DNA from: Frischella japonica
GTDB lineage: Bacteria > Pseudomonadota > Gammaproteobacteria > Enterobacterales > Orbaceae
Direction of reading: 5' to 3'
NCBI RefSeq assembly: GCF_014489845.1
Contig: NZ_JABURY010000016.1
Span: 228,829-292,828, forward strand
Length of the DNA: 64,000 bases
A program made the position numbers and the translations under genes. The notes beneath the pieces were generated by a model. That model did no database searches, was not told the DNA's origin, and was given only the letters and a program-made list of their open reading frames with translations. Below are positions 60,815 to 64,000 of this stretch, in pieces; position 1 is the stretch's first letter; each line of letters starts with the position of its first letter.

Positions 60815-61507
60815 TCAATCAGAACAGAGACAATAACTATCGACTTGTTTAGGATTTGTCTTACCTAACCAATCTTTAAATCCAGAGCCAATTTGAGTTT
60901 CTACAATAAAAACTTCCCGTAAAGTTAATGAAAATTCTGCTGACATACTATTTTTTTGTGCACTACTAATAGATGTAATCATCATATTTTTATAACGCTT
61001 CATTTGTGTTTCTAAGGTTAAAACTTTCCCAGAACGTTGGATTTTTAATAACAATTCATAAGCGTGAGCAATTCGATCACTTTCGCTTATATCTAAAGAG
61101 ACTGGATCGTAATCAGGCAGAAAATCTGTTGTTAAACGATTATTAACTCTATAATCATTATCATAAGTCGAGGAAATTTGTTTTACCTTCAAATTTGCTA
61201 TGGCAGACATTATTTGAACTTCTATGGATGATTTATATTCCACCTCTAAGAACGCTTCACTTTTGGTTAAAAGCATCTTAAACGGAGGCGTATAACCTAC
61301 AATAATGCCTGTAAGCGTAACTTCTTTTGGCTGTAATATGGCATGATCATTAATATTTGTACCGTTTTCAATTGGATTTTCAGTCAAATTTAAATTTGAT
61401 GCATGCTGTACTATCGTAACAGCGTCGAAATCAAAGCAGCCAAAAGAATTACTTAGCAACGCACCACTATGATTATTCGATGAATTTAAGATCGTTTCAA
61501 AAGCCAT
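60815..61507 (-). CDS. Dit-like phage tail/baseplate protein
   Basis: 230 residues. It opens ILNSSNNHSGALLSNSFGCFDFDAVTIVQHASN and has EVTLTGIIVGYTPPFKML, then a C-terminal TLETQMKRYKNMMITSISSAQ with SLTLREVFI. This is the pattern of Dit-like tail proteins that join the tube to the hub. Encoded directly behind the tape measure (TAATG overlap), as expected. Confidence 0.7.
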   Translation of the reverse strand: MAFETILNSSNNHSGALLSNSFGCFDFDAVTIVQHASNLNLTENPIENGTNINDHAILQPKEVTLTGIIVGYTPPFKMLLTKSEAFLEVEYKSSIEVQIMSAIANLKVKQISSTYDNDYRVNNRLTTDFLPDYDPVSLDISESDRIAHAYELLLKIQRSGKVLTLETQMKRYKNMMITSISSAQKNSMSAEFSLTLREVFIVETQIGSGFKDWLGKTNPKQVDSYCLCSD

Positions 61508-63600
61508 TAATAGACCCCCATTGCCGTTCTAGCATTATTATTAGCATCAATAATTTGTTTAATTAGTTCATTGCTGGCTTGACTAACCGCTGCTTTGGTA
61601 TCTTGAGCATTAATGACAATATTATTGTTAATATTACCTTGATTGACGGTATTAGATATATTTTTTCTGGCACCTTTTTGTGATACGGCAGCGACTGTCT
61701 GAAAATCAATTATGTCAGTAGTAGTATAACCATTACGATTGTTTTTTGTATCATCCGATGTTAAACCAAAACAAGATAAAACCCCTTTTATATTATCTGA
61801 TACACTGTCAATTATTGAAGTAAATTTACCTTTACCCCACCCTCCTAAACGGCTAAGTAATGACATTAAATTACTACCCATTTGCAAAAAACTTTTACTA
61901 ATTTTATTCACAAACGAATTAGTGTATTCATGACAAGAATCAAAGAAATTGCTAACAAATTTCCAGGCAGCTTTAAATGGAGAACAGATATAATCAAAAA
62001 TACGCCCAAAACATGAAGCTATAGATTTAACCACTGTTACAGCAGCATCCCAAAGCACATCAAAGAGTGTTATAATACCATCAATGGCTCCAGAAAATAG
62101 GTTGGTAATACCAGTCCATAAATTCTTAAACAATGACCCTATCCATTTACAGACGATTACAACGCCTTTCCAAAGCAAGCTGTAATACGACACAATACCA
62201 TCTATCGCGTAATAAAATATCCTAATGACAGCAGCCCACAACTTTTTGAAAAAAGCACTTATAGGTTTAAACGCTGATACAATATCATCCCATAATTTAG
62301 AAAAAAATGATTCAATTGCCGACCAATTATCATAAATAAGGTACGCGGCAAGCGCTATAGCAGCAATAATAAGCAATATTGGATTAGCAATCAAAATTGT
62401 AGTTAAAGTTTTAAGTGCGCTACCCATCATTAAAAAGGCCGTTTTTACCACTGAAGCAACCACGGTTATTGAAGTGGCTACACCGGATATAAGCAATGAT
62501 GCCAATCTTAATGCTACAACGGTAAAACCTTTAAATATGCTTATCAAAAAAGAGAAACTCGGACCTATCACAGTTTTACACACTGAAGCGATAGTGGTTA
62601 AACTCCCACCAAGTATCTGTAATGAACTAAAAACTAATTTTATAACATTAAATAAACCTATTGCCCCTAAACTTAGACCAGCCAGACCGCCGATGAATGT
62701 TCCTAGACCAAGTAAACAGTCTTTAATTGGTTTAGGTAATGAATTAAAAAGATCATGCAACATGTGAACTGTGCTTACTAATGGTTTCCAAAACTCACCG
62801 AATGTGCTATCACCTTTTTCCAGATAAGTCATTAAATCATCGAATAATATAAGCAATCCTGTTATCAATCCAATTACCACACCAATCGGACTAAATAATA
62901 AATGTCGATTAAATATAATCCATGCTGCAGTTAAAATTGTTAAGGTATTTTCCCAACCAATCGTCGCGGTAATAATTTTATCAATGTATTTTATTGCCCT
63001 ACTAACTGCATGGAGAATCGTGCCAATGCATTTCACTAACACAGCAATTCCATGCGCAATTAATTCCTTATTCGCTTTTAACCAATTATGAAAATCATTA
63101 GCAATTTCAATAATTATTGGCGCCAAATCTAATGCAATCTTAGTACAAATACTATCAACTGCGACGCCAAGCGCAGACATGGTTTTATTATATCTTTCAA
63201 CTAGATAAAGTTGACAACAAGTTATTTTGAATAATACATCTTCTTCATTAGCAAGTTTTTTGGCATTGTTAATCGCTTCATTAAAAAATGATGCGATATT
63301 TTTGCTAAATTTAACAATATTTTTTATAACACTTAGCGTTGATTTAAGTAAATTTAGTTTCTTTTTTATTTCTTTTGAGTTTTGTTTATCGTCGTCTTGC
63401 TTGCTGGTACTAGCAGGTGTTTTCTTATCATTTTCCTTTTTTATAATATTAAGTGCTTTGTTATCATTGGATTTATTATAATGCTGGCATTGCTGTTGAA
63501 CATTATTAACAACTTTAACCATCAACTGAATTGCAACCGCTATTTTAATTGCTTTATATGAATCAAATCCAAGCTTAATCAACATTTGATCAACATGCAT
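61507..63600 (-). CDS. Tail tape measure protein
   Basis: 697 residues. A charged N-terminal part (DDDKQNSKEIKKKLNLLKSTL) is followed by several long hydrophobic stretches between about residues 180 and 430, repeated aromatic segments such as WDDIVSAFKPISAFFKKLW and WTGITNLFSGAIDGIITLFDVLW, and a helical C-terminus. This matches tape measure proteins that set tail length and are ejected at infection. At roughly 700 residues the tail would be short to medium. It directly follows the chaperone frame, the conserved location. Confidence 0.88.
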   Translation of the reverse strand: MHVDQMLIKLGFDSYKAIKIAVAIQLMVKVVNNVQQQCQHYNKSNDNKALNIIKKENDKKTPASTSKQDDDKQNSKEIKKKLNLLKSTLSVIKNIVKFSKNIASFFNEAINNAKKLANEEDVLFKITCCQLYLVERYNKTMSALGVAVDSICTKIALDLAPIIIEIANDFHNWLKANKELIAHGIAVLVKCIGTILHAVSRAIKYIDKIITATIGWENTLTILTAAWIIFNRHLLFSPIGVVIGLITGLLILFDDLMTYLEKGDSTFGEFWKPLVSTVHMLHDLFNSLPKPIKDCLLGLGTFIGGLAGLSLGAIGLFNVIKLVFSSLQILGGSLTTIASVCKTVIGPSFSFLISIFKGFTVVALRLASLLISGVATSITVVASVVKTAFLMMGSALKTLTTILIANPILLIIAAIALAAYLIYDNWSAIESFFSKLWDDIVSAFKPISAFFKKLWAAVIRIFYYAIDGIVSYYSLLWKGVVIVCKWIGSLFKNLWTGITNLFSGAIDGIITLFDVLWDAAVTVVKSIASCFGRIFDYICSPFKAAWKFVSNFFDSCHEYTNSFVNKISKSFLQMGSNLMSLLSRLGGWGKGKFTSIIDSVSDNIKGVLSCFGLTSDDTKNNRNGYTTTDIIDFQTVAAVSQKGARKNISNTVNQGNINNNIVINAQDTKAAVSQASNELIKQIIDANNNARTAMGVY

Positions 63601-63602
63601 TG

Positions 63603-63982
63603 TTACCTCTTACTCATTTCTGCTTCTGTTATTGCCATTTCAGCTATGACCTCATGCATATCTAACACATCATCTAACGAATAAATGGTTCTGAGATCAT
63701 TTAAGGTAGTAAATCCTTTTACTACCGGTGTCCAAATAAACCAATCTACATCGCTAAATCCGCTAGATTGTCCAAGCTGAGCGTACTTACTTTGGATGCG
63801 AGGCCATTTGGTAAAAAACCCAAAAAATGAAATTTTAACCCTTCAAATAAAAATTGGAGATATTGATCGCGATGCTCATTAAAAAAACTTTCCGCTTCGT
63901 TATCTTTTTGTAATAAAAACTTTTTACCATTTTCATCAGTGACAACGGTATGTTGAGCTATAAATTTTTCTACCTCATTCAT
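63603..63982 (-). CDS. Tail assembly chaperone, long form by -1 frameshift (gpGT analogue)
   Basis: Joining the first frame (from the ATG at 63982) to the -1 frame at the slippery site near 63812-63827 gives a product of about 126 residues ending at the TAA 63605-63603. The -1 frame is open from a TGA near 63850 to 63603, has no usable start codon, and encodes protein-like sequence (FFTKWPRIQSKYAQLG, GFSDVDWFIWTPVVKGF, LDDVLDMHEV). This is the layout of lambda gpG/gpGT just ahead of the tape measure gene. The alternative, an ordinary frameshift mutation, is less likely. Confidence 0.7.
63746..63982 (-). CDS. Tail assembly chaperone, short form (gpG analogue)
   Basis: 78-residue product read without frameshifting: MNEVEKFIAQHTVVTDENGKK..., then FLFEGLKFHFLGF and a C-terminus after the slippery site. 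The N-terminal half, shared with the long form, is acidic and helical. No strong ribosome binding site is seen in the 18 bases left before the window edge. In lambda the short form is made in large excess over the frameshifted form. Confidence 0.7.
   Translation of the reverse strand: MNEVEKFIAQHTVVTDENGKKFLLQKDNEAESFFNEHRDQYLQFLFEGLKFHFLGFLPNGLASKVSTLSLDNLADLAM
63812..63827 (-). promoter_or_regulatory. Tandem -1 frameshift slippery heptamers
   Basis: In the phase of the 63982 frame the mRNA reads C-AT TTT TTG GGT TTT TTA: heptamer T-TTT-TTG at 63827-63821 and T-TTT-TTA at 63818-63812. Both fit the X-XXY-YYZ rule for simultaneous tRNA slippage by -1 and both lead into the open -1 frame. T-TTT-TTA is the same heptamer as in HIV-1 gag-pol. 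Confidence 0.7.
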
Positions 63983-64000
63983 TTCTTGAGAATTTAAATT

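Follow-up and report, generated by a model that had tools for sequence, protein, structure and literature searches.

We found a phage tail assembly chaperone gene at the end of a stretch of the Frischella japonica genome (GCF_014489845.1, contig NZ_JABURY010000016.1, positions 228,829 to 292,828), and the whole stretch of 64,000 nucleotides is what we call the window. We believe it very probable that this is a chaperone of the lambda G/GT kind and that a -1 ribosomal frameshift on the minus-strand tract T-TTT-TTG-GGT-TTT-TTA makes its long form, with both T-run heptamers acting as shift sites. An initial annotation of this DNA had reported two heptamers nine bases apart in the phase for a -1 slip, and the positions (63827-63821 and 63818-63812), the spacing and the phase (X-XXY-YYZ) were all borne out. 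The tract is 16 bases long. Because the codon that separates the two sites is GGT, every successive pair of codons is slippery, and the tract therefore holds four overlapping heptamers. Counts in the following lines refer to a set of 47 distinct sequences of the locus, window included.

63821..63827, minus strand: slippery site 1, T-TTT-TTG; 26 of the 47 sequences have it along with site 2, and 3 have it without site 2.
63812..63818, minus strand: slippery site 2, T-TTT-TTA; in 43 of the 47 sequences, 17 of them without site 1.
63818..63824, minus strand: overlapping in-phase heptamer T-TTG-GGT; absent from 3 GCT variants among the 26 two-site sequences.
63815..63821, minus strand: overlapping in-phase heptamer G-GGT-TTT; absent from the same 3 GCT variants.

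The 137-residue zero-frame protein matches the tail assembly chaperone family Phage_TAC_9 (PF10876) over residues 7-133, with an E-value of 2e-25 and 89.9 bits against a curated cut-off of 25. In NCBIfam, nothing scored above the cut-offs. The ends that the initial annotation gave to the two frames were correct, as the zero frame stops at 63746 and the -1 frame runs up to the tape measure gene. It had also started the gene at the ATG at 63982 and predicted a long product of 126 residues, and both of these were wrong. That ATG is an internal codon: the Pfam match of the resulting 78-residue piece begins only at profile position 70, and the zero frame is open up to the window edge. From a longer stretch of the genome (L005) we placed the start codon at the equivalent of 64159, which is outside the window, so the short and long products have 137 and about 185 residues (114 + 71) and not 78 and 126.

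63749..64000, minus strand: zero-frame coding part of the tail assembly chaperone (Phage_TAC_9, from the PF10876 match), running past the window edge.
63746..63748, minus strand: zero-frame stop codon TAG, read from the sequence.
63606..63818, minus strand: -1 frame extension (T-like domain), 71 residues counted from site 2, recognized by the conserved block DVDW...DLRTIYSLDDVLDMHEVIAE, its substitution pattern and matches to PHROG 4364 and 3976.
63603..63605, minus strand: -1 frame stop codon TAA, read from the sequence, just before the tape measure ATG at 63600.

Of the 47 sequences, 26 have both sites, 17 have site 2 only, 3 have site 1 only and 1 has neither. They were drawn from related genomes, viral contigs, named genomes and phage records (8 fetched of 70 matched), and sequences that were identical over the 210 bases compared were merged. 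Among them are loci in genomes of the window's family that equal those of Orbus hercynius (L013 and L076) and of Orbaceae bacterium ESL0727 (L016 and L080), a match that supports the Orbaceae label given in the initial annotation. Three fetched loci (L001, L015, L095) were the window's own locus again. The script that collected the loci kept only those with an open -1 frame, so we read by eye the ones it missed (L043, L065, L069, L075, L086, L090, L093). Five of these joined the set; L075, which has disturbed frames, and L086, where the contig is cut off, were left out. Of 60 related genomes, 13 (counting the window's own) contain PF10876; in a class-wide search it was present in 1 of 369 genomes, again the window's own. 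All 13 genomes belong to the window's family, the Orbaceae, and every one has both heptamers. The check for conserved heptamers in Orbaceae relatives, which the initial annotation had proposed, therefore came out positive.

In a midpoint-rooted FastTree protein tree, the 26 two-site sequences form one group. Site 1 occurs without site 2 in Campylobacter showae (L070), the Proteus phage RS51pmB (L090) and the contig L042. The C. showae and L042 sequences join the two-site group next, and RS51pmB pairs with Proteus phages in which only site 2 is present. From this we infer at least two moves of the shift site, each by three codons, with the two-site group as an intermediate that has been retained. 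In L042, site 1 reads T-TTT-TTC, there is a near-site C-TTT-TTC at position 2, and an in-phase T-TTC-CCC follows one codon later.

The codons of site 1 do not change in the two-site sequences, and the codons just before them do. Codons 106-110, the five that directly precede CAT, took 5, 10, 10, 5 and 8 parsimony steps in the 26 sequences, with amino-acid changes accounting for 2 steps at codon 108 and 1 at codon 110. CAT, TTT and TTG took no steps at all (each codon is present in 26/26), and the site 2 codons TTT and TTA took 0 and 1. The changeless stretch opens with CAT, and therefore the constraint begins at the codon whose last base starts the heptamer. Among upstream codons with an invariant amino acid, only 2 of 24 had zero steps and the mean was 4.2. 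The probability of drawing three zero-step codons at random from the pooled 27 is 0.0034, that of drawing five codons with at most one step from the pooled 29 is 0.0003, and a rough Poisson estimate that uses the same residues is about 3e-6, but relatedness among the 26 sequences, of which some may represent one prophage in close strains, makes all of these rough.

Alternatively, site 2 could be the only working shift site, with site 1 carried along as a passenger because the HFLGFLP peptide and AT-rich codon usage fix its letters. Site 2 is the widespread one (43/47), and none of the 26 two-site sequences departs from FL at site 1. However, a passenger is hard to reconcile with site 1 codons that never vary next to codons that do, or with the three sequences that carry site 1 without site 2. 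Sequences that lack site 1 have other residues there (FVD in L002, FAD in L040), so the HFLGFLP peptide is not needed everywhere in the family. We consider this explanation unlikely, although it is the strongest of the alternatives. The two leucine codons also differ in a regular way: site 1 always has TTG, whereas site 2 has TTA in 25/26.

If both sites shift, some -1 translation would begin at site 1, and the codon between the sites would then be read in the -1 frame. With TTG as the leucine codon of site 1, this codon always encodes glycine in the 26 sequences (GGG in 23, GGC in 3), while the zero-frame residue at the same place switches between glycine and alanine three times on the tree. 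An invariant -1 glycine despite a zero-frame alanine fits -1 translation from site 1. In the three sequences with site 1 only, the -1 codon at this position does not encode glycine, so glycine is not needed there throughout the chaperone family.

The -1 frame is a real coding sequence under coding constraint. Over 40 codons counted from the conserved DW motif, pairwise comparison of the 26 sequences gave 4029 synonymous and 2543 nonsynonymous codon differences. Shifting the same DNA by one or two bases gave synonymous/nonsynonymous counts of 765/5983 and 544/6060. The extension also aligns among Orbaceae, a Proteus phage and Aaphi23, and with the substitution pattern this confirms that the -1 frame is kept as protein, which the initial annotation had named as a point to check.

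Prophages decay often, and a chance frameshift mutation could have split a single-frame gene in this one. Against this, the -1 part is under the constraint just described, and the same -1 split is present in all 47 sequences; the script selected for the split, but none of the loci it missed and we read by eye has a single frame. The initial annotation had noted that homologues with the whole protein in one continuous frame would make the split a mutation. We found none among the fetched loci L002-L094 (L086 is cut off and the frames of L075 are disturbed), so the mutation reading is not supported, and we give it practically no credence. Decay or a sequencing error could account for the disturbed frames of L075, which stand out against its close relatives.

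We also considered that RNA polymerase, and not the ribosome, slips on the T runs. There are two runs of six Ts in succession, but runs of this length are short for efficient transcriptional slippage. An in-phase T-TTT-TTN is present in 46/47 sequences. Slippage would need no phase, but part of the phasing is imposed by the conserved FF/FL residues. Transcriptional slippage is an established means of recoding (review PMC5009743); here we think it very improbable as the source of the long product.

The weight of the evidence rests on position, phase and conservation, and not on the string itself. In any phase, TTTTTTNNNTTTTTT occurred at least once in 44/100 shuffles of the window, so the string by itself is not rare. 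We rejected the idea that the tract is rare as a string: the whole genome contains 2 matches to TTTTTTGGNTTTTTTR and 1 to its reversed control, and the second match of TTTTTTGGNTTTTTTR is in no chaperone-like open frame. Mechanically called open reading frames of more than 150 residues on both strands (43 frames, 16,928 codons; the chaperone is too short to be included) hold 25 in-phase T6 heptamers, none of them paired within 12 bases. In viral contigs, 81 stretches match TTTTTTGGSTTTTTTRCC. Among the 80 listed, 21 are the chaperone gene and the remaining 59 all failed the filter for a -1 extension.

Under the proposed mechanism, the 137-residue chaperone would come from the majority of ribosomes, which stay in the zero frame, and the 185-residue form, with its second domain, from a minority that shift -1 on the tract. 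The lambda precedent suggests that the tape measure protein is bound by the first part and the tail-tube protein by the extension. A ribosome that passed site 1 would get a second chance three codons later, as the -1 frame is open from either site. According to the review PMC5009743, T-run heptamers shift less readily in E. coli than A-AAA-AAG does. With weak T-run sites and no conserved RNA structure (see below), two sites in series likely set or steady the ratio of long to short product. The initial annotation had suggested that each heptamer could contribute to this ratio, and the comparative evidence supports this suggestion. The same review reports that the U-UUU-UUA site of human immunodeficiency virus (HIV) yields a heterogeneous product. 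By the HIV logic, site 1 would give HF[L/F]GFFTKW and site 2 would give HFLGF[L/F]TKW. These junction peptides partly differ, so mass spectrometry could apportion the use of the sites.

We looked for stimulators on both sides of the tract. The initial annotation had proposed looking for RNA structure downstream, and the outcome was mixed: there is no conserved fold in the two-site group, and 3/26 of its members have z below -2. In folding without pseudoknots, the consensus of the group has 13 pairs and 0 compensatory changes; its alignment (A4) covers 20 of the 26 sequences and starts after site 1, with 8/20 rows starting 3-12 bases late. Rfam gave no match at E-values up to 1. The downstream fold of the window has a z of 0.47, and of +1.06 in a run in which we folded the 70 downstream bases of 42 sequences with 60 shuffles each. 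Values in that run went from +2.2 to -2.9, and were below -2 in 6/42: L011, L018 and L028, which have two sites, L061 and L064 with site 2, and L070 with site 1. There may thus be an RNA stimulator in part of the two-site group. The C. showae sequence (L070), with site 1 only, has the strongest of the 42 folds (z -2.9), a 12-pair hairpin about 7 bases past the site. A hairpin with a single site, as opposed to a double site with no conserved hairpin, would fit compensation, but as a single case it is not a test.

Upstream, there is precedent in dnaX for a Shine-Dalgarno-like frameshift stimulator, and the window has a weak candidate.

63839..63844, minus strand: GAAGGG, a possible Shine-Dalgarno-like stimulator that ends 11 bases upstream of site 1.

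The glutamate codon here is GAG in 19/26 two-site sequences, compared with 13/78 at three other invariant glutamate codons (Fisher 2.4e-7, ignoring the relatedness of the sequences). GAG would favour a GAGG Shine-Dalgarno-like core, and we treat this as a lead only. The window itself has GAA and not GAG at this codon.

On balance we lean slightly towards a further reading, in which the 16-base tract is a maintained two-chance element. A second site would have been added three codons from an old one. The pair would have allowed the site to change place in a sister lineage, where C. showae and L042 have site 1 only. In prophages of the Orbaceae it would have stayed as a stable double site, and there the two weak sites would jointly set the long:short ratio in the absence of conserved RNA structure. 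Several points weigh against our main reading, a frameshift at two working sites, in addition to the relatedness of the sequences that makes our probabilities rough. The FLGFLP peptide is itself conserved, and the argument from the -1 glycine is based on just three changes of one kind. L011, L018 and L028 (3/26 two-site sequences) do fold, by way of a stem that starts about 16 bases past site 2. Finally, the viral contig L043 keeps the chaperone and the -1 extension with no T-run heptamer. L043 has an A-AAG stretch between the usual site positions, which could be another kind of shift site.

The genes around the chaperone resemble the tail module of a contractile-tailed phage. Directly upstream is a 142-residue protein with a match to KPP10_Orf10 (33.7 bits against a cut-off of 25), which probably has a tail-tube role. 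The gene on the other side is the tape measure gene.

61507..63600, minus strand: tape measure protein, 697 residues, from matches to PHROG tail length tape measure families.

Farther downstream there is a Dit-like protein and later a Baseplate_J protein. In lambda the gene order is V-G/T-H, with the frameshifted chaperone gene preceding the tape measure gene. The order we found, tail-tube-like protein, chaperone and tape measure, agrees with this, and the position like that of lambda G/GT in the initial annotation holds.

It is not obvious how a shift site can move in evolution without loss of the long product. The relatives, some with one site (the first or the second) and some with both, can be read as a series, and the two-site state makes it possible to test directly whether the effects of weak sites in series add up. 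Our searches of the openly licensed literature brought up no report of tandem slippery sites in phage tail chaperones.

Several named phages share the -1 layout. One is the Haemophilus/Aggregatibacter phage Aaphi23 (AJ560763, L004), whose ORF54-54' has a homologous -1 extension (48% identity to that of the window) and an existing annotation as a two-piece joined product; it differs in having the second site only (GAT TTT TTT ATC). The best named phage matches are the Proteus phages vB_PmiM_ZX7 and vB_Pmi_BCPPmi_001 (L002 and L003; 53% and 52% identity). They share the -1 layout, but have only the second site (GAT TTT TTG) and no joined product annotated. The Proteus phage vB_PmiP_RS51pmB (L090) and the C. 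showae prophage contig (L070) have the same family and -1 layout with the first site only, and the C. showae prophage, unlike the window, has a strong hairpin after it. In the phage rows H11-H40, which include L092 and L094, the -1 extension is unannotated in 27/30; it is also unannotated in L002, whereas the records of L094 and L090 list it as a small gene of its own. All of these extensions, annotated separately or not at all, are probably parts of frameshift-joined products. Lambda uses one heptamer, G-GGA-AAG, whereas the window has two T-run heptamers nine bases apart in a gene of the Phage_TAC_9 family. Lambda G/GT is likewise a frameshifted tail chaperone (review PMC5009743). The frameshift itself is the textbook lambda G/GT case; what is new is that a double site has been stably kept.
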